A program made the translations under genes and the position numbers. Positions 3,866 through 20,214 of a DNA stretch of 40,565 nucleotides are shown here, piece after piece. Source of the stretch: an uncultured Candidatus Competibacteraceae bacterium (GTDB taxonomy: Bacteria; Pseudomonadota; Gammaproteobacteria; Competibacterales; Competibacteraceae); the NCBI GenBank assembly GCA_903879705.1, contig CAIRMO010000047.1, forward strand, positions 1-40,565, given 5' to 3'. Position 1 is the first letter of the stretch, and each line of letters starts with the position of its first letter. Below the pieces are notes generated by a model. That model ran no database searches. It was not told where the DNA came from and saw nothing but the letters and a program-made list of their open reading frames with translations.

Positions 3866-4210
3866 ACCCGCTGGGCGGTGTTGGAGTCAGGCGTAGTCGG
3901 GGATATTTATTGCCCCTTGCCTAGAGATGAGTAAGGATAAACGGTCGCTCGCCGTGTATTCGGCGGGCATCGCGTTCCATAACCTCCAGCAAAGCGCCCA
4001 CACGGGCACACGCGATTGATTTTGTTGATCACCAGCTAATCGGAACAGGTGATACCGGGGCTGCCCTTGTGCGGAATTTTGTCGCCGGCGGCTACGTCAA
4101 TCGTGTAGATCGTCAGATCGAACCGCCTGACGCTGGGCATCGCTCATTCAGTTTCAATTAAGGTGCTGCACTCAGACTAAAACTCTCACAAAAACCTAGG
4201 GAGAAATTTT
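3866..4210. other. Intergenic stretch with no recognised gene
   Basis: I find no convincing coding sequence, RNA or repeat between the double-hairpin repeat and the small frameshifted gene. Short readings on either strand lack a ribosome site and family-like motifs. The last 60 bases become AT-richer before the ribosome site at about 4199-4204, so a promoter for the b561 gene may lie there, but I cannot place its boxes. Confidence 0.4.
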
Positions 4211-4340
4211 ATGACGTACAGACCCAGATGGCGAAGTCAAGGATATCACCGTCTTCTTTGGCGCATTGGATGGTCCATTTCCGCAACAAACCATGCCGAT
4301 GCTGCCGCCGACCCCCGGCGATCTGTTGACCGAAAATTGA
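4211..4340 (+). pseudogene. Probable frameshifted small gene upstream of the b561-like cytochrome
   Basis: A good ribosome site (GGGAGAAATTTT) precedes the ATG at 4211. The frame of that ATG gives an unlikely Arg-rich 49-residue peptide ending in an ATGA overlap with the cytochrome gene. Another frame, from 4218 to the TGA at 4338-4340, reads 40 residues of normal composition: TDPDGEVKDITVFFGALDGP, then a Met/Pro-rich end. Removing one base near 4217 would join the ATG to this frame as MTTDPDGEVKD. I do not recognise the peptide. The simplest reading is a small gene with a one-base insertion; the alternative is that the 49-codon overlapping reading is real. Confidence 0.4.
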
Positions 4341-4356
4341 GGTTTAGAGGCGCGCC

Positions 4357-4947
4357 ATGAACCCGTTTAATCGATTTCGGTTGTTTCACGCGCTATTCGT
4401 CGCCGGGTTTTTGGCCGTGTATTTCAGCGGCGACGATGGCGATTTGCTGCATGTCTGGCTGGGCTATGGCTTGGTCGTCCTCGTCGCTATCCGACTGGCG
4501 CTGGCGTTGATCCGGGTCAAGGGCTTTCCTGCACTGCGGCCAGTATTTCGCTCTGGCGCAATATCGATCATGGTCAGTCGGGTGCTGGTGATCGCGCTGT
4601 ACCTGTCCGCCAGTGCCACGCTGACCACCGGCCTGATCATGGTGGATCACGTCCGGGTGCTGGGTTTTGTTGCCGCCCAAGCAATTACACCCGCCTACGC
4701 CGATGATGATGAAGTGTGGGAAAAACCAGGCCGGATGCTTAGTGAATTTGCTTCCCATGATGTTGACGAAATCCATGAGATCACTGCCAATGCTACGTTA
4801 ATTATCGCCGTCATCCATCTCGGATTTCTATTGGCGTTCCGTCGCCGTTTTGCTATCAGCATGATTCCGGGGTTTGGCCCTGCGGCTAAAAATCGTAGCG
4901 ATCCAGCGGTCAAAACCGGGCCGACTGCCAGTACGTCAAGAGTTTAA
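4357..4947 (+). CDS. Cytochrome b561-like membrane protein (Ni,Fe-hydrogenase b-type subunit fold)
   Basis: A 196-residue protein with four likely membrane segments (about residues 9-25, 33-52, 70-95 and 145-161). Histidines at 11 and 32 in the first two helices, and at 98, 140 and 154 later, suit bis-histidine ligation of two b-type hemes. This is the pattern of the Ni,Fe-hydrogenase 1 b-type cytochrome/b561 family, which passes electrons between a periplasmic partner and quinone. No hydrogenase or cytochrome c gene is next to it, so its partner is unknown. A periplasmic-type loop (residues 112-140) is acidic and rich in Asp/Glu. The start overlaps the upstream reading as ATGA. A terminator hairpin begins inside its last codons. 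Confidence 0.8.
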   Translation: MNPFNRFRLFHALFVAGFLAVYFSGDDGDLLHVWLGYGLVVLVAIRLALALIRVKGFPALRPVFRSGAISIMVSRVLVIALYLSASATLTTGLIMVDHVRVLGFVAAQAITPAYADDDEVWEKPGRMLSEFASHDVDEIHEITANATLIIAVIHLGFLLAFRRRFAISMIPGFGPAAKNRSDPAVKTGPTASTSRV

Positions 4948-4966
4948 CTCGGCCCCGGTCTTTTTT
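4915..4966 (+). terminator. Rho-independent terminator after the b561-like gene
   Basis: ACCGGGCCGA (4915-4924) pairs with TCGGCCCCGGT (4949-4959) apart from one bulged or mismatched base, and TTTTTT follows at 4961-4966. The 5' arm lies inside the 3' end of the coding region. Confidence 0.7.
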
Positions 4967-5050
4967 CCGAATGAGTGATTCCAGGTTTTACCACTCAGAT
5001 TGGGTTCCTATTTCATGTTATTCAGGTAGTCCGTTGTGAGGATTTGATTC

Positions 5051-5236
5051 ATGAAAACTATGTTTGCGATTTTTGCGGTCTTAGGCGGAATTGCCATTCT
5101 TTGGCCGTTTCGGGAAAAAATTATCGGTTGGATCAAAAAACCCGATGAACTGGTATCAAAAATTGACGCTCTTATTTCCCCGCCGAAATCCACTTCGGAA
5201 AAGCCGACGGATTCTTCTGACCATCCGCCAAGATAA
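5051..5236 (+). CDS. Small single-span membrane protein of unknown function
   Basis: A 61-residue peptide with AGGA about ten bases upstream of its ATG. Residues 4-19 (MFAIFAVLGGIAILWP) form one membrane segment, followed by a basic stretch (REKIIGWIKK), a short amphipathic part and a hydrophilic Ser/Pro/Lys tail. It stands alone between two clear terminators, one ending at 4966 and the other beginning at 5301, so it is probably its own transcription unit. I recognise no family. The isolated unit, good start signal and membrane segment favour a real gene. Confidence 0.6.
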   Translation: MKTMFAIFAVLGGIAILWPFREKIIGWIKKPDELVSKIDALISPPKSTSEKPTDSSDHPPR

Positions 5237-5300
5237 GGGCTAAGGCGCTTTTCTGCAGGACTTTCGCTTCGGCATCAAGGTCTGTTGAATCGTAACGCGA

Positions 5301-5336
5301 CTTCCAGCCAGTTTAAACGCGGGCTGGAAGTTTTTT
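5301..5336 (+). terminator. Rho-independent terminator after the small membrane protein
   Basis: A perfect nine-base stem, CTTCCAGCC (5301-5309) with GGCTGGAAG (5322-5330), and a 12-base loop are followed at once by TTTTTT (5331-5336). Confidence 0.9.
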
Positions 5337-5374
5337 ATCCATACGTCAGATGAGATTGCATTGGAACCGTTGTT

Positions 5375-6322
5375 ATGAAACATCGTCCTTCAGCCGAAGT
5401 TTGGGAGTGGTTGCAGAAGGAAGCCACGCTTAATGAACTAAGCGCCAACTACCCACAAGAATGGGAAACGGTGCAACGTGAGCTATCGGCGGTTCTGGCT
5501 CGCGGCCAGGTTGAAGCCCTGCGGCAATGCGTAGAGCGTTCATCGGCTTATGCCGCCCTTGCCCTTAATAGCGTCCATAAGAGTTCTGGAACCGCTAAAG
5601 CATGGGAAACCGCCCTACCGCGCCTGATCCGAAACCGGATGATTCAATTAGCGGTGAAAAATCATTGTTTGATCACGGCTACTGGAGTCACTCAAGGCAA
5701 AGTTCGGTTTAATTATCTAAATGGTTATGTCACCCAAAAGCTGCTTTTTTCTCGTGATCTGGATAGAAAGCCGGTTTCTTTGTTCTGGTTTCGGCTGATT
5801 TGGCCATTGATTTGGCAAAAGCGGCTGCTCATGCCATTAGTACAGCCAAAAGGGATTTATTGTTTTTATTCGTGGCCACTGATTGCAGCACTGGCTAAAA
5901 TAATGGCCGAACGAACCTGTCTCGAAATCGCCGCCGGCGATGGAACACTGACCCGGTTTTTAGTGGATCGTGGCATTAACATTATCGCCACAGATAATTA
6001 CAGTTGGCAACAAGCCGTAAAATACCCGGAATCGGTGGTTAATCTCGATGCTCGGGCGGCACTTACTGCTTATTTGCCGGAAATCGTCATTTGTTCATGG
6101 CCACCGGCAGGGAATACTTTTGAGCGGTATGTTTTCAAAACGCCCAGCGTACAATGCTATATCGTGATTAGTAGTCGCCACCGTTTCGCGGCGGGCAACT
6201 GGACTGACTATCAAGCCCAATCCGCGTTTACCATCGAAGAAGACCAGACGCTGAGTCGGCTGGTCTTGCCGCCGGAGCTGGACGCTGCTGTATATCGGTT
6301 TCAGCGACGAAGCTCCTTCTGA
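5375..6322 (+). CDS. SAM-dependent methyltransferase-like protein
   Basis: A 315-residue protein. The last 150 residues hold a class I methyltransferase-like fold: motif I reads CLEIAAGDGTLTRFL, followed by GINIIATDNYSW, where the acidic residue after beta-2 would hold the ribose, and then PEIVICSWPPAGN, which resembles motif IV. The first 150 residues are helical and basic, with no recognised domain. A hydrophobic patch (WFRLIWPLIW) sits about residues 142-151. The substrate is unknown. The gene is clearly AT-richer than suhB, pspA or gltA and sits between single-gene units, which would suit recent acquisition. The ribosome site is weak (GGAAC). A catalytic role is inferred only. Confidence 0.65.
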   Translation: MKHRPSAEVWEWLQKEATLNELSANYPQEWETVQRELSAVLARGQVEALRQCVERSSAYAALALNSVHKSSGTAKAWETALPRLIRNRMIQLAVKNHCLITATGVTQGKVRFNYLNGYVTQKLLFSRDLDRKPVSLFWFRLIWPLIWQKRLLMPLVQPKGIYCFYSWPLIAALAKIMAERTCLEIAAGDGTLTRFLVDRGINIIATDNYSWQQAVKYPESVVNLDARAALTAYLPEIVICSWPPAGNTFERYVFKTPSVQCYIVISSRHRFAAGNWTDYQAQSAFTIEEDQTLSRLVLPPELDAAVYRFQRRSSF

Positions 6323-12403: not shown

Positions 12404-12862
12404 ATGATGATGCAGAACTATCGCAACATGGCCGGCCAGATTCTGTTGGCCGCGACCCTGCTGGTGGGCAGTTTGGTGATGGCGGCGGATGTCGCCAAGC
12501 AACCCGTTGGCAAAGTCTCGATTACTGAAAAACAGTTCGGGCTGATTGTGGGTGGCAGCACCGGCAGTGGCATACTGACGTTCCAAGGTAAAAAATATCC
12601 GTTCAAGCTTAATGGGTTAAGCGCAGGGATCAACGTGGGTATTTCCAAGATGAGCGCCGTCGGCGAGGTGTACGATCTGAAGGCGGCATCTCAATTTCCC
12701 GGCACCTACACCCAGCTGGCAGCGAGCATCGCTTTGGGCGGTGGCGTGGGTGGCTTGCGGTTGCAGAACGAAAATGGCGTAATCATGAGCCTGCGGTCGC
12801 GAACCAAAGGTCTGGATCTCAATCTGGGCAACGTGACGGGCATGACGGTCACCATGGACTAA
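12404..12862 (+). CDS. Small exported protein of unknown function
   Basis: A 152-residue protein with GAGGAG just upstream; two tandem ATGs (12404, 12407) are equally placed. Residues 1-27 form a clear Sec signal peptide ending in VMAAD. The mature part is Gly-rich and beta-like: FGLIVGGSTGSGILTFQGKK, then INVGISKMSAVGEVYDL, LGGGVGGLRLQNENGVIM and GLDLNLGNVTGMTV. The alternating glycine and hydrophobic pattern suggests a small beta-sheet periplasmic or outer-membrane-associated protein, reminiscent of DUF1134/EipA-type proteins, though I would not assign it. It converges on gcvR with a shared hairpin between them. Confidence 0.7.
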   Translation: MMMQNYRNMAGQILLAATLLVGSLVMAADVAKQPVGKVSITEKQFGLIVGGSTGSGILTFQGKKYPFKLNGLSAGINVGISKMSAVGEVYDLKAASQFPGTYTQLAASIALGGGVGGLRLQNENGVIMSLRSRTKGLDLNLGNVTGMTVTMD

Positions 12863-15832: not shown

Positions 15833-17620
15833 TTGACTCCCCGCATCCAGCGTTTGCCGCCGCAACTGATCAGCCAGATCGCCGCCGGCGAAGTGGTGGA
15901 ACGCCCGGCTTCGGTGGTCAAGGAACTGCTGGAAAACAGCCTCGACGCTGGAGCCACCCGCATTGTGGTTGAAGTCGAACAGGCCGGGGTTCGGCTGATT
16001 CGGGTCCGTGATAACGGTTCCGGCATTCCGCCCGACGATCTTGCCTTGGCGCTGACCCGCCACGCTACCAGCAAAATTGCCAGTTTTGATGATCTCCAGC
16101 AAGTCGCCAGCCTCGGTTTTCGCGGTGAGGCGTTGCCCAGCATGGCCTCAGTCTCACGCTTGACCTTGACCTCCCGGGTCGCCGGTCAGGACAGCGGTTG
16201 GCGGATCAGCGGCGATGGCAGCGACACCGTTGACGAACCCATGCCGGCCCCGCACCCGATCGGAACCACCGTTGAAGTCCGCGATCTGTTTTTCAACGTG
16301 CCAGCCCGCCGCAAGTTTTTACACAGCGAACGCACCGAGTTCGGCCATATCGAACAAGGCGTCCGCCGGTTAGCCTTGATCCGGTTCACCGTCGGTTTTA
16401 GCCTGGCGCATCACCAGCGGGCGGTATTGAATCTGGAGCCAGCGACCGATCAGGCGGCTTGGACGCAACGGGTGGCGGAACTGTGCGGGCGGGAATTCAT
16501 CGCTGCCAGCGTGTTTACCGACCGCGAAGATGCCGGGCTACGGTTGTGGGGCTGGATCGGCCTGCCGGAAGCCTCCCGCCCCCAGCCCGACCTGCAACAC
16601 TTCTTCGTCAATGGCCGGCCGGTACGCGACCGGGTGATTAGCCATGCGCTGCGGCAGGCTTATCAGGATGTGTTGTACCGGGATCGCCATCCCGCTGCCG
16701 TGCTGTCGCTGGAACTCGATCCGACTGCTTTGGACGTCAATGCCCATCCGACCAAACAGGAAGTGCGGTTCCGGGAAGCCTCGGTCGTCCACGACTTCGT
16801 TCGCCGCACGGTCCAGACGGCACTGGCGGAAATACGGCCCGGTGCCGCGCCGTCGCCGCTGATTCAAGTCGGGGAGCGTGGTGGGCTGATCAACCGGTTT
16901 AGCCCCGCCAGCCAGTCCGGTTTACCCTTGCGCGGGGTGCAGGAGCGGATGAGCGCTTACGGGCAATTGCATGAAGCAGCGCCTGCGGCATCCGCGCCTG
17001 TGCCTACCGCCAGTGCGGCAGCCGAGCCTGAACCCGAACCGCCGTTGGGTTATGCCATCGGACAGTTGCATGGCTGCTATGTGCTGGCGGAAAACCCGGC
17101 GGGGCTGGCGGTGGTGGACATGCACGCCGCCCATGAGCGTATTCTGTATGAACGGCTGAAAACCGCGTTGGCCGAAGGCGGCCTCGCTATCCAGGCCTTG
17201 CTGGTTCCGGTCACGCTGACGGTCAATCCGGCGGAGCGGCGGCAGGTTGAGGAACAGGGCGATTTATTGACCCAAGCGGGTTTTGATGTGGCGTTGTTGG
17301 GACCGGAAACGGTAGTGGTCCGGCAAATTCCGGCGCTGCTGGGCGGCGCGGACATTGCCGGTCTGGTGCGCGACATGCTGGCCGATCTGGCCGCGCAACA
17401 GACCAGCGACCGTTCCGAAACGGCTATTTTGAACCTGCTGGCCGATCTGGCCTGTCATGGTGCAGTGCGGGCCAACCGGCGACTGAATCTGCTGGAAATG
17501 AACGCCCTTTTGCGCGACCTGGAGCGCACCGATTACGGCGGTCAGTGCAACCACGGTCGACCCACCTGGGCGCAATTGACCTTGGAGGAACTGGATCGGC
17601 TGTTTCGGCGCGGGCGGTGA
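15833..17620 (+). CDS. mutL: DNA mismatch repair protein MutL, endonuclease-type
   Basis: A 595-residue protein. The N-terminal GHKL ATPase has IAAGEVVERPASVVKELLEN, RVRDNGSGI, RHATSKI and GFRGEALPSMASV; the transducer domain follows to about residue 335. A Pro/Ala/Glu linker (about 370-400) leads to the dimerisation domain, which carries the metal-dependent nickase signature DMHAAHERILYE at about residue 429, plus ACHGAVRANRRL and the terminal CNHGRPT. E. coli MutL lacks this nickase motif and depends on MutH, so repair here is probably the MutH-independent kind. The start is a TTG at 15833; a TAA nine bases upstream excludes anything earlier, and no clear ribosome site is seen. Confidence 0.95.
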   Translation: MTPRIQRLPPQLISQIAAGEVVERPASVVKELLENSLDAGATRIVVEVEQAGVRLIRVRDNGSGIPPDDLALALTRHATSKIASFDDLQQVASLGFRGEALPSMASVSRLTLTSRVAGQDSGWRISGDGSDTVDEPMPAPHPIGTTVEVRDLFFNVPARRKFLHSERTEFGHIEQGVRRLALIRFTVGFSLAHHQRAVLNLEPATDQAAWTQRVAELCGREFIAASVFTDREDAGLRLWGWIGLPEASRPQPDLQHFFVNGRPVRDRVISHALRQAYQDVLYRDRHPAAVLSLELDPTALDVNAHPTKQEVRFREASVVHDFVRRTVQTALAEIRPGAAPSPLIQVGERGGLINRFSPASQSGLPLRGVQERMSAYGQLHEAAPAASAPVPTASAAAEPEPEPPLGYAIGQLHGCYVLAENPAGLAVVDMHAAHERILYERLKTALAEGGLAIQALLVPVTLTVNPAERRQVEEQGDLLTQAGFDVALLGPETVVVRQIPALLGGADIAGLVRDMLADLAAQQTSDRSETAILNLLADLACHGAVRANRRLNLLEMNALLRDLERTDYGGQCNHGRPTWAQLTLEELDRLFRRGR

Positions 17621-17797
17621 ACCGATAAACCCAGCTTCCGGGCCGTTGTACACTATCGCCCCCGCGACCCAAGAAAAATTTACAGGAGGAAAATCCCCCT
17701 CATCACTGACAGGAATCTCAAAAACGTCGCTGCCTGTTCCTGTGATCCTGTCTCTCACTAACTCCAACCAACTCCAATTTTCAAGGAGCTTGCAATC

Positions 17798-18547
17798 ATG
17801 CGCAGTCTTTCTTTGCTCGGCGTCGCATCGCTGACCCTTTTGGCGGCGGCTTGCGCGACTGACCCGGCCAGCCAGCAGCCGTCGGGACCAGCCGCTTATG
17901 CCGAGTATCTGACCTATCCCGACCGTCTCCAACCGGTACCTGGCAATGATGGTGCTTACCGGTGGATCGATCCCAGCGCCAAGCTGTCCAGGTACAACCA
18001 AATCCTGCTGGAGCCGATCCGGATTCAGTTAGCCAGCAATGCCGACTACAAGGCGATCGATCCCTCTGAGCTGAAAACCCTGACTGACTATTTTCAGCAG
18101 TCCATCGTGAAAGCGCTGGGCAAGACCTATCCGGTTGTTGCCAAGCCGGGACCGGGGGTGATGCGGGTAAAAATCGTTATCGCCAATCTGGTGCCGACCA
18201 AACCGGAGATGAGCGTTGTGACGCTGGTGGTGCCTTTCGCCGCAATTCCTGATATGGCTTCAGGAGTGGCGACGGGTGGTCCGCCCGGTTCCGCGCCTTA
18301 TCTGGGCCGCACTGGCATCGCCGCGCAGTTTGTCGACAGCCAGACTAACCAGGTGATTGCCGAGTTTGCCGATACCCAAGTGGGTCGGAAATATGTGGTG
18401 GATACCTCGAAAGGCGTTGGCAATGCGATTGACACCGGCGTTTCTGATTATGTGAAAGCCTATTCGACCTGGGCCTATGCCCAAAAGGCCTTTGATGGCT
18501 GGGCGCAACAGTTGCGGGCGTGGCTGGACAAGATTCACGGCCGGTAA
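17798..18547 (+). CDS. DUF3313-type lipoprotein
   Basis: A 249-residue protein with AAGGAG eight bases upstream. The signal peptide ends LLAAACATD, giving a lipoprotein Cys near residue 19. The mature domain begins YAEYLTYPDRLQPVPGNDGA, then YNQILLEPIRIQLASNADYK and a TDYFQQSIVKALGKTYPVV stretch, the pattern of the DUF3313 family of periplasmic lipoproteins, whose role is unknown. It is followed after 79 bases by the SnoaL-like protein and then the W-V-N peptide, all on the same strand, and is the probable first gene of that operon. A 176-base gap after mutL contains a weak GACAGGA/TCCTGTC repeat (17708-17752). Confidence 0.8.
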   Translation: MRSLSLLGVASLTLLAAACATDPASQQPSGPAAYAEYLTYPDRLQPVPGNDGAYRWIDPSAKLSRYNQILLEPIRIQLASNADYKAIDPSELKTLTDYFQQSIVKALGKTYPVVAKPGPGVMRVKIVIANLVPTKPEMSVVTLVVPFAAIPDMASGVATGGPPGSAPYLGRTGIAAQFVDSQTNQVIAEFADTQVGRKYVVDTSKGVGNAIDTGVSDYVKAYSTWAYAQKAFDGWAQQLRAWLDKIHGR

Positions 18548-18626
18548 CCGCCCAATAGACGCCAGGGAGTGGCATGGTGAAGTCCCGGAAGTCCCGTTGA
18601 TAACCTGTGTTTGGAGATTGATTCCG

Positions 18627-19214
18627 ATGAAAAAAAATTATCGACTGTTATTGACTGCGACATTGGGTTGCGCATTAACGCTGTCGGTGCTGGCGGCGGA
18701 AAAGGCCCCGGACGCCGAGAAAGCCAGCGCCGAACTCAAGGCGGTGCTGAATCAGCACCATGAAGCCCTGAACAAGCAGGATATCAAGGCGTTAATGGCG
18801 CTTTATGCTGACAATCCCAACGTCGCGCTGATGGGCACCGGTTCCGGCGAATTCTGGAAAGGCAAGGCGGCGATCGAGGAGACCTACAAGCATTTTTTTG
18901 AGACCTTCAAGGCCGGTTCGCTAAGTCACCAATGTCCAGAGGCGACCGGGGGCGAAGAGGGTAACGATGCTTGGTTAATGGCTTCCTGCGTCATGAAAGA
19001 TAGCGATCCGTCCGGCCAGCCCCGCGAGTTCGAGCTGAATGTGTCGGCGGTGCTGAAGAAGGAAAAGGCTGGCTGGCGCGTCCAGGCCCTGCACACCTCC
19101 AACTTGGCTGAAGATGGCGGTCCGCCGCCAGAAGCGGGGGCGCCAGCAGCAACTCCCGCGCCAGCAGCGACTCCCGCGCCAGCTCCGGCAGCCCCCGCCA
19201 AGAAAGCACCATAA
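18627..19214 (+). CDS. Exported SnoaL/DUF4440-like protein with Ala-Pro tail
   Basis: A 195-residue protein with GGAG eleven bases upstream of its ATG. A Sec signal peptide (residues 1-23, ending SVLAAEK) precedes a cone-shaped NTF2/SnoaL-like domain: LNQHHEALNKQDIKALMALY, MGTGSGEFWKGKAAIEETY, then AWLMASCVMKDSD and GWRVQALHTSNL. Such folds bind small hydrophobic ligands or act as partners; no catalytic set is evident. The last 35 residues are (Ala/Pro/Thr)-rich repeats ending in Lys-Lys-Ala-Pro. Its stop is 13 bases before the start of the W-V-N glycine-rich peptide, so the two are almost surely cotranscribed. A shared task in the periplasm is inference. Confidence 0.8.
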   Translation: MKKNYRLLLTATLGCALTLSVLAAEKAPDAEKASAELKAVLNQHHEALNKQDIKALMALYADNPNVALMGTGSGEFWKGKAAIEETYKHFFETFKAGSLSHQCPEATGGEEGNDAWLMASCVMKDSDPSGQPREFELNVSAVLKKEKAGWRVQALHTSNLAEDGGPPPEAGAPAATPAPAATPAPAPAAPAKKAP

Positions 19215-19227
19215 GTGGAGAACGGTA

Positions 19228-19605
19228 ATGACCGATCAACTTGATGGTAAAACCCGGTCTGAACCGGTCGAGGCGCTGGTTGCCGAGGAGCGGCGGACGT
19301 TTCTGCGCGGCTTGGGCAAATGGTCACAGGCGGTGATCGGCGGTGCGGTGATCGGCGGTGCGCTGACCCACGCTAACCCGGCCCAAGCTTGGGCGGCGGC
19401 TCGTGGCGCGGGCGGCTCGGCTGCCGTTCGCGGGGGCGGCAGTTGGGTTAACCGCTATGGCGGCGGTGGTGGTGGCGGAGGCTGGGTCAACCGGTCTGGT
19501 GGCGGTGGTGGTGCCTGGGTCAACCACGGCGGTGGTGCCTGGGTCAATGGCGGCGGCTGGGTCAATCGTTACGGTGGTGGCGGGTCGGCTTGGATCAACC
19601 GCTGA
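19228..19605 (+). CDS. Tat-type glycine-rich peptide with six W-(V/I)-N motifs; candidate cyclophane RiPP precursor
   Basis: A 125-residue protein with GTGGAG eight bases upstream of its ATG. Residues 21-56 look like a twin-arginine signal (ERRTFLRGLGKWS, then a hydrophobic Gly/Ala/Val core ending NPAQAWA). The mature part is Gly-rich and carries W-V-N at 73-75, 86-88, 97-99, 104-106 and 111-113 and W-I-N at 122-124, each set off by glycines (for example GSWVNRYGG and GGWVNRSGG). Repeated aromatic-x-Asn tripeptides in a Gly-rich tail after an export signal resemble GrrA-type precursors, in which a radical-SAM enzyme links the aromatic ring to the Asn side chain. No radical-SAM gene is in the window. 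Modification is inference. Confidence 0.75.
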   Translation: MTDQLDGKTRSEPVEALVAEERRTFLRGLGKWSQAVIGGAVIGGALTHANPAQAWAAARGAGGSAAVRGGGSWVNRYGGGGGGGGWVNRSGGGGGAWVNHGGGAWVNGGGWVNRYGGGGSAWINR

Positions 19606-19617
19606 TTTTTACGCCAT

Positions 19618-19660
19618 AAAAAACCAAGACCCCACGGCGTGCGCCGCAGGGTCCTGGTTA
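19618..19660 (-). terminator. Terminator after phasin, probably two-way
   Basis: A long stem, AACCAAGACCC (19622-19632) with GGGTCCTGGTT (19649-19659) and an inner CGGCG/CGCCG, is flanked on its left by six As, which read as TTTTTT on the minus strand after the phasin gene. On the plus strand TTAAAATT follows, so it may also stop transcripts from the W-V-N operon. Confidence 0.8.
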
Positions 19661-19687
19661 AAATTCAGCGGGTTTTAAAGCAGTCGC

Positions 19688-20077
19688 TTATTTCTTCAGC
19701 GCCAGAACGCTTTGATTTAACGCCTCAACCTGCTGGGTCAATTCCTGAATGTCATTCTGGCTCGGGACGCCCATCCGGTGCAGCACTTGGGCGACCCGCT
19801 CCTGAAACAATTCTTCCAGGCGGTCGAACTGCTCGTTGGCTTTGCCGCGAAACCCAACCACCTTGCCCTTGGTGCCTTCAAACTGGACTTCGGCGGCGTG
19901 CTTGGCGCGTTTTTCAACCGCCTCGCCTTCCTGCACCAGGGTTTGGAACAGCTTCTCGCTTTCCTCCTGGGTTTTGGCGAAAGCGCCTAACCCCGCCAGC
20001 CAGATGCGATTGGCCGATTCACGGATGTTGGCGACGGCGGGGGTTTCTACGATGGTTTTCAACGCAACGCTTGCCAT
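19688..20077 (-). CDS. Phasin family protein (polyhydroxyalkanoate granule)
   Basis: A 129-residue helical protein with GAGGAG upstream of its ATG. It carries the TIGR01837-type phasin pattern: NRIWLAGLGAFAKTQEESEK near residues 23-42, LFQTLVQEGEAVEKRAK, then a coiled-coil region RLEELFQERVAQVLHRMGVP and a C-terminal leucine-heptad-like QELTQQVEALNQSV. Phasins coat polyhydroxyalkanoate granules, control their size and number, and may bind DNA or regulators. No phaC or phaE is in the window. The gene is read alone with a strong terminator after it. Its presence supports a storage-polymer lifestyle. Confidence 0.92.
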   Translation of the reverse strand: MASVALKTIVETPAVANIRESANRIWLAGLGAFAKTQEESEKLFQTLVQEGEAVEKRAKHAAEVQFEGTKGKVVGFRGKANEQFDRLEELFQERVAQVLHRMGVPSQNDIQELTQQVEALNQSVLALKK

Positions 20078-20214
20078 GATGCTCTCCTCGATGAAAGGTC
20101 TTGATTTAAACGGCCTTGACTCAAAACGCCAGTTTTAATGATTTCCAGCGGGTTTCAAGCCGCGCCGAGGCGCATTTTAGCGATAAAAATTAGAGTGAAA
20201 ACCCTACTCGTAAT

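Follow-up and report, generated by a model that had tools for sequence, protein, structure and literature searches.

The window, by which we mean the whole stretch of 40,565 nucleotides of Competibacteraceae DNA that was analysed, encodes a glycine-rich protein that is probably one of four Tat-exported precursors in its genome; the Trp-Asn rings of these precursors would be installed in trans by the one maturase of a dispersed system. This reading is based on gene content, conservation, linkage and co-occurrence, from which we infer modification, export and role. It suggests a family of peptide-modifying systems that has not been described before.

The leader sequence of the window precursor, from translation of 19228-19605, is ERRTFLRGLGKWSQAVIGG. 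The parts of the precursor are:

19228 to 19605, + strand: precursor protein of 125 residues, ATG to stop, by translation; one of four homologues in the genome
19228 to 19389, + strand: leader, residues 1-54; Tat-like signal with RR at residues 22-23, ending in AQA (predicted cleavage site)
19312 to 19326, + strand: LGKWS, residues 29-33, near-invariant in the leader; candidate maturase docking site, judged from its conservation
19390 to 19602, + strand: putative mature glycine-rich tail of 71 residues, with 29 Gly and no Cys
19444 to 19452, + strand: W-V-N motif 1, residues 73-75
19483 to 19491, + strand: W-V-N motif 2, residues 86-88
19516 to 19524, + strand: W-V-N motif 3, residues 97-99
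19540 to 19548, + strand: W-V-N motif 4, residues 105-107
19558 to 19566, + strand: W-V-N motif 5, residues 111-113
19591 to 19599, + strand: W-I-N motif 6, residues 122-124, at the C-terminus

An earlier note on this DNA described a 125-residue reading frame with a twin-arginine-like leader, and a glycine-rich tail with five W-V-N motifs and one C-terminal W-I-N. Translation bears out both descriptions and shows RR-x-F-L in the leader; against the Tat model TIGR01409 the precursor scores 14.7 bits, under the cut-off of 16.7. This model is matched at all by two of ten precursors, and RR-x-F-L is found in 77 of the 78 leaders counted (the pattern was partly used for their selection). TatC is encoded in the same genome. 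All six Asn of the tail are at Trp+2, and six of its seven Trp lie within W-x-N; six W-x-N were reached in none of 100,000 residue shuffles of the 71-residue tail.

The precursor gene follows two genes on the same strand. The earlier note had called them SnoaL-like and DUF3313, and profile scores confirm these names:

17798 to 18547, + strand: DUF3313 putative lipoprotein, which starts the gene string of the precursor (PF11769, 126.5 bits)
18627 to 19214, + strand: SnoaL-like protein, Sec-type signal peptide judged by eye (SnoaL_3 PF13474, 50.6 bits; cut-off 22)
19622 to 19659, no strand assigned: 17-pair hairpin in the gap between the precursor gene and the convergent phasin gene, from a terminator scan

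Since its T-run is on the - strand, the hairpin is primarily a terminator candidate for the phasin gene. Terminator-like sites in the whole window number three, against 4.0 expected from shuffles; a promoter scan of 17600-20200 gave no sigma-70-like sites, with 0.7 expected from shuffles. DUF3313 was considered as a core part of the system and dropped, as it is present at nine precursor loci and is not a constant partner. Elsewhere in the window, 12404-12862 encodes an exported-looking protein of 152 residues which is weakly similar to the envelope integrity protein EipA (22.6 bits; cut-off 30.8).

CX3CX2C is absent from all window frames of at least 120 codons, so no radical-SAM gene is evident there. 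The lack of a radical-SAM gene remarked on in the earlier note thus stands for the 40 kb window; it does not hold genome-wide, as a radical-SAM/SPASM gene is present on contig C40.

The genome searched comprises 3.62 Mb in 148 contigs and is given as 100% complete; the window is contig C47. Three homologues of the window precursor are located elsewhere in this genome, on C40 (59% identity over the match), C34 (45%) and C37 (54%). In an alignment of the four precursors, R22, R23, F25, L26, L29, G30, W32, S33, V36 and I37 are all kept, as are several W-x-N positions. The C40 paralogue starts at about C40:2217 on the minus strand, some 250 bases past the stop codon of the radical-SAM/SPASM gene and on the same strand; the C37 paralogue adjoins a gene for a pseudo-radical-SAM/SPASM-like protein. 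These two genes are:

C40:2474-3613, - strand: radical-SAM/SPASM gene, 380 residues (PF04055, 34.3 bits over 29.5; TIGR04085, 52 over 27)
L009:7641-8456 (genome C37; L156), - strand: putative pseudo-radical-SAM protein, 272 residues, with SPASM-like Cys at the C-terminus, beside the C37 precursor

The genome search that the earlier note had suggested therefore yields a plausible enzyme. At E<=0.001, the C40 protein matches no gene of this genome but its own; against PF13186 alone it scores 15.2 bits, under 21.5. CX3CX2C and the SPASM cysteines are invariant in all eight aligned enzymes. Several dispersed precursors probably share this one gene, which is on a different contig from the window.

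A second SPASM protein over the cut-off is encoded on C145 (L005, G000:C145:44031; 484 residues, followed by a 254-residue open reading frame). It scores highest with heme b synthase (95.2 bits) and is under the cut-off in its best 25 NCBIfam rows; a further radical-SAM protein is encoded on C16. At the C40 enzyme locus, a SpoIIAA-like (STAS) gene (L007:1438-1797, - strand) is located downstream of the precursor. An SBP_bac_3 gene upstream of the enzyme (L007:3922-4755, - strand) was rejected as a core part, as it is found at no other precursor locus within flanks of about 1.5 kb.

Motif conservation was determined from 79 distinct precursor copies fitting the leader pattern, which have 638 tail Trp. 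Asn is at +2 of 523 of these Trp, against 81.5 expected when each tail is shuffled; W-x-N is thus conserved among homologues, a point on which the earlier note had made its proposal depend. The other 115 lack Asn at +2, where the next most common residues are G (35 of 638) and D (29). Entropy is 3.04 bits at +1 (Y, V, G, I, A, H, N) and 1.12 bits at +2, and Arg is at +3 of 387 of the 638. The pattern used to select leaders took in RR, F/L, L, K/R and W. W is present in 78 of 78 leaders, having been selected for; outside the pattern, Gly is kept in 77 of 78, Ser in 78 of 78 and Val in 78 of 78.

Same-genus orthologues of the window copy keep all six W-x-N. The middle residues are V,V,V,V,V,I in the window, V,V,V,I,I,V in G027, and V,A,I,L,V,I in G026 and in one G028 copy; the second of the two G028 copies is cut by the contig end. 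Fixed W and N around a changing middle residue is the pattern that a Trp-Asn cross-link would require. Compared with G027, the window copy has 38 identical, 13 synonymous and 3 non-synonymous codons in the leader and 40, 22 and 6 in the tail; compared with G026, these numbers are 25, 13 and 15 in the leader and 31, 23 and 10 in the tail.

When cut and visibly broken copies are set aside, the number of W-x-N in the tail ranges from 2 (L052) to 17 (L040), which suggests repeat expansion and contraction. Two copies next to the enzyme have few motifs: L043:3330-3776 (G016) has a normal leader, a changed tail and one W-x-N, and L052 (G015) has two.

The distribution of the system was examined in 39 genomes of the GTDB family, with E<1e-30 as a strict enzyme match. 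Precursors are found in 30 genomes and the enzyme in 28; both are present in 26, precursors only in four, the enzyme only in two, and neither in seven (Fisher p 6e-4, uncorrected for relatedness). In the 25 genomes which are at least 90% complete, the corresponding numbers are 18, three, zero and four (p 0.003, also uncorrected for relatedness). The co-occurrence of homologues with a radical-SAM/SPASM gene, which the earlier note had advised looking for, is therefore seen in 26 of the 30 precursor-bearing genomes. All but one of these 30 have two to five precursor rows each; the strict enzyme is a single gene per family genome (two pieces in G038).

Precursors occur without a strict enzyme match in G002, G006, G009 and G025. 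In G025, a contig of 6,169 bases ends in a match to enzyme residues 351-378; in G006, a precursor is at a contig start with a STAS gene behind it, as at the enzyme locus of the window's own genome. No such explanation was seen for the lack of a strict match in G002 (94% complete) and G009 (82%). The genomes with an enzyme and no precursors, G010 and G035, are 73% and 58% complete.

The system is rare outside the family. The enzyme profile finds 28 of the 40 genomes of its own order and is absent from the one non-family genome among them; it also finds 2 of 141 genomes of the Geobacter order and 1 of 396 Acidobacteriota genomes drawn. The pseudo-radical-SAM profile finds 1 of 398 Pseudomonadota genomes drawn, which is the window's own. 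Precursors are present in two of the three distant enzyme-bearing genomes. The third, Geobacter sp. UBA5735 (G436), has the enzyme and the pseudo-radical-SAM gene, and no precursor was found in it; the contig in question begins shortly before the pseudo-radical-SAM gene.

In named genomes, enzyme matches comprise 27 loci, 24 of them at 81-95% identity; 17 are labelled Competibacteraceae or Contendobacter, and seven have broader or odd labels. By its named relatives, the genome is placed in Candidatus Competibacteraceae, and it probably belongs to a wastewater bacterium. The distant matches are two Geobacter bins (58 and 54%; the latter is Geobacter sp. GAC1) and one Acidobacteria gp4 bin (55%). 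Two bins labelled Synechococcaceae and Phycisphaerales (L070, L071) have enzymes that are 87 and 85% identical; these bins are perhaps mislabelled Competibacteraceae.

The settings of the 79 precursor copies were scored by the genes within 350 bases. Upstream, a SnoaL-like gene is present at 34 copies, the enzyme directly at nine and a coiled-coil gene at five; downstream, a pseudo-radical-SAM gene is present at 24 and a STAS gene at seven. Nine copies have none of these settings, three of them near a contig end. The order enzyme, SnoaL-like, precursor is found in six family loci (L042, L043, L046, L049, L054, L056). As SnoaL-like homologues precede precursors in other genomes, the SnoaL-like gene in the window is a recurrent partner. 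Most SnoaL-like frames of the family, a few of which are truncated, start with an apparent Sec signal as judged by eye; a periplasmic location is therefore probable for these proteins.

In Geobacter sp. GAC1 (L090), SnoaL-like, precursor, pseudo-radical-SAM and radical-SAM/SPASM enzyme genes are clustered in that order, and a second radical-SAM/SPASM gene stands directly before them:

L090:1862-3142: second, anSME-like radical-SAM/SPASM gene, directly before the cluster
L090:3238-3669: SnoaL-like protein, no signal peptide at its start
L090:3769-4113: precursor with seven WAN/WVN
L090, read from 4162 to 4995: pseudo-radical-SAM protein
L090, read from 4992 to 6176: enzyme, 54% identical to the C40 enzyme

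In the acidobacterium, genes for a SnoaL-like protein, a precursor (four W-x-N) and a pseudo-radical-SAM protein run in that order up to a contig end; another contig begins with an enzyme fragment of 55% identity. In G001, a precursor, a pseudo-radical-SAM gene and the start of an enzyme gene are found at a contig end. These shared gene orders make the SnoaL-precursor pair in the window one part of a cassette that is found in three phyla.

The pseudo-radical-SAM protein has C-x2-C-x5-C-x-GYFKWP near its C-terminus in ten aligned members; no CX3CX2C was seen in these ten. Two of the proteins tested gave no Pfam match. NCBIfam matches of the members are weak: HxsC for seven of ten, the SPASM domain for five, and TIGR04084 and an unrelated receptor for one each. 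A structural model (mean pLDDT 67.7) finds radical-SAM/SPASM enzymes in its first eight VIA rows, with Z from 10.5 to 8.6 at 4.4-5.8 A over 193-227 residues; these rows include anSMEcpe (Z 10.5, 4.4 A, 212 residues), ChlB (10.0), TigE (9.2), SkfB (9.2) and 5why (8.6). Designed proteins and ordinary barrels appear from Z 8.4 down, and the lower radical-SAM rows are therefore tied with them. Foldseek alone gave nothing for this model at E<=1e-3. The profile of the protein matches the enzyme in the C-terminal Cys region only, with a probability of 19%, and the only rows from a PDB sequence search with it were two for adenylate kinase (E 0.14 and 0.65). With moderate confidence, the protein can be considered a degenerate radical-SAM/SPASM protein, probably an adaptor.

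The best NCBIfam rows of the C40 enzyme are sulfatase maturase TIGR03942 (138 bits), DynA (129.9) and DarW (105.5), followed by TIGR04083 (96.7), DarE (89.5) and GrrM/OscB (86.9); AmcB scores 59.5. All of these scores are far below their cut-offs, so homology does not fix the reaction. A PDB sequence search with the single enzyme finds only anSMEcpe (4k36, E 6e-17), and a profile search adds ChlB (3e-5) and 8vpo (1e-3). Three core and eight SPASM-region Cys of anSMEcpe, which we take to be its Fe-S ligands, all face Cys in the C40 enzyme. The Asp after the third SPASM Cys of anSME is also kept and is invariant in eight of eight enzymes. Foldseek returns 4k36 (E 2e-10, TM 0.65) for a model of the C40 enzyme which is weak (mean pLDDT 64.2) and unreliable in its SPASM half (pLDDT <50 at 248-349).

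A mechanism can be proposed from these features. The precursor would be made in the cytoplasm, where the leader (RRxFLRxLGKWSQAVIGG) may serve both as a Tat signal and as a docking site for the enzyme. Judging from the motif and the enzyme class, the C40:2474-3613 enzyme would act in trans and join a Trp ring carbon to the C-beta of the Asn at i+2; as many as six rings could be formed, with 2.016 Da lost per ring. The pseudo-radical-SAM/SPASM-like protein, which is without CX3CX2C, may act as an adaptor or chaperone. Tat would then export the stiffened protein and signal peptidase would presumably cut after AQA; the product of about 71 residues would function in the envelope or extracellularly, with the probably periplasmic SnoaL-like protein as a possible binding or processing partner.

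A wider proposal is held more tentatively, with a little less than even confidence. An ancestral cassette of SnoaL-like protein, Tat-leader W-x-N precursor, pseudo-radical-SAM/SPASM adaptor and maturase would have become dispersed in Competibacteraceae, with one maturase acting in trans on two to five precursors and the leader combining Tat signal and docking site. The product would be a large, multiply ring-stapled, Tat-exported envelope or matrix protein and not a small natural product, and the whole an undescribed RiPP-like system. Cross-linking before folded export would explain the use of Tat in such a system. An envelope or matrix role rather than an antibiotic one is our guess; it is preferred because the partners look periplasmic or lipid-linked and because an unsystematic look beside the loci revealed no protease, ABC exporter or immunity gene.

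Other explanations can be weighed against the proposed Trp-Asn rings. It is unlikely, in our estimate, that the enzyme modifies the precursors by another chemistry, such as oxidation or epimerisation at Asn or a Trp-Arg link, and forms no Trp-Asn cyclophane. Such a chemistry would suit the closest solved relative, the sulfatase maturase anSME, which oxidises a side chain and whose Asp is invariant in the enzymes here; Arg at +3 of most tail Trp would suit a Trp-Arg link. However, Arg at +3 is missing in two of the six window motifs, and the window precursor has no Cys and hence no thioether. Trp and Asn are a fixed pair, and their i/i+2 spacing is that of known triceptides, including the Trp-Asn link of OscB as given in passages of PMC11002830. 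A quite improbable alternative is that only the C40 copy is a substrate, the window copy being an unmodified structural glycine-rich exported protein or a decaying duplicate. The window has no radical-SAM motif in its 40 kb, and G002, in which no enzyme was found, contains a SnoaL-linked precursor with a frame-shifted tail (L142 / L181, G002:C26). In contrast, the window copy keeps its leader and W-x-N within the genus with mostly synonymous change relative to G027; the SnoaL-precursor pair also occurs inside the six enzyme loci and in other phyla; and several precursors per genome alongside one enzyme gene is the rule in the family.

Gly-rich repeat proteins arise easily, and the W-x-N/Gly repeats could be ordinary low-complexity sequence whose link with radical SAM is a coincidence; the co-occurrence test is uncorrected for phylogeny, and one of the three distant enzyme genomes showed no precursor. 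The shuffles of the window tail argue against low complexity. Coincidence would also have to account for the clustering, in Geobacter sp. GAC1, of the same leader and motif with an enzyme of 54% identity, and for their presence beside a pseudo-radical-SAM gene in the acidobacterium, which has its enzyme fragment on another contig; we regard this explanation as extremely improbable.

Competibacteraceae are glycogen accumulators of wastewater, and if the preferred reading of trans-acting Trp-Asn ring formation is true, a set of cross-linked exported proteins is suggested in this family. Tat would be added as an export route for cyclophane peptides, and the pseudo-radical-SAM partner would gain a testable role. 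Maturase and substrate genes would be apart, so gene-neighbourhood mining would miss most substrates. The six-motif tail gives a clear mass prediction: with all six rings, the putative mature tail would lose 12.09 Da, going from 6753.20 to 6741.10 Da (monoisotopic).

A search of the open-access literature found no paper combining cyclophane, radical SAM and twin-arginine, nor one combining Tat signal, RiPP, radical SAM and precursor. Among the matches listed, there was none for Competibacter with radical SAM or RiPP, and none for SnoaL with RiPP, radical SAM or precursor peptide.

Among known systems, anSME is the best family and the closest solved structure for the C40 enzyme, and its Cys are aligned; the enzyme differs in falling below the family cut-off of 349.45 and in that C40-type genes are linked to Gly-rich precursors. 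Triceptides fit in spacing (i/i+2) and residues (Trp, Asn), the ring bond here being putative. According to passages of the review PMC11002830, both OscB and XncB form a bond between Trp and the C-beta of an Asn at i+2; the former, which also accepts Asp, makes its link from Trp C7 to the C-beta of either residue. The same passages describe a Trp to Asn C-beta bond in dynobactin, a small BamA-binding antibiotic, at i/i+3, with a further His-Tyr link. DynA (NF041298), named DynE in those passages, resembles the C40 enzyme as its second-best family and in this Trp-Asn bond, and differs in its cut-off of 450 and in the i/i+3 spacing given there. AmcA/AmcB (NF041721/NF041718) form several cyclophanes per precursor according to the family name, and two of ten precursors match AmcA weakly (best 0.018); the C40 enzyme is far below the AmcB cut-off of 425. 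XyeB is not among the best 25 of 55 families for the C40 enzyme, and nothing seen makes the system Xye.

GrrA/OscA with GrrM/OscB is similar in having a Gly-rich precursor, an export-type leader, repeated aromatic-x-Asn and a radical-SAM/SPASM enzyme. The earlier note had proposed a substrate of GrrA or Xye type, or a structural mimic of one. Part of this stands: a radical-SAM/SPASM precursor is likely, given W-x-N, the shared leader and co-occurrence. Membership of GrrA/GrrM is rejected on profile scores. The C40 enzyme has 86.9 bits against a TIGR04261 cut-off of 310, which none of the 39 family genomes passes; the window precursor has no match to TIGR04260 (GrrA) up to E 10, and two of ten precursors match it weakly (best E 4e-4). 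The SBP_bac_3 protein upstream of the C40 enzyme, compared with GrrP, scores 30.5 bits against a TIGR04262 cut-off of 190. Unlike GrrA/GrrM, the system described here has a Tat-type LGKWS leader, SnoaL-like and pseudo-radical-SAM partners, and substrates which are scattered over the genome.
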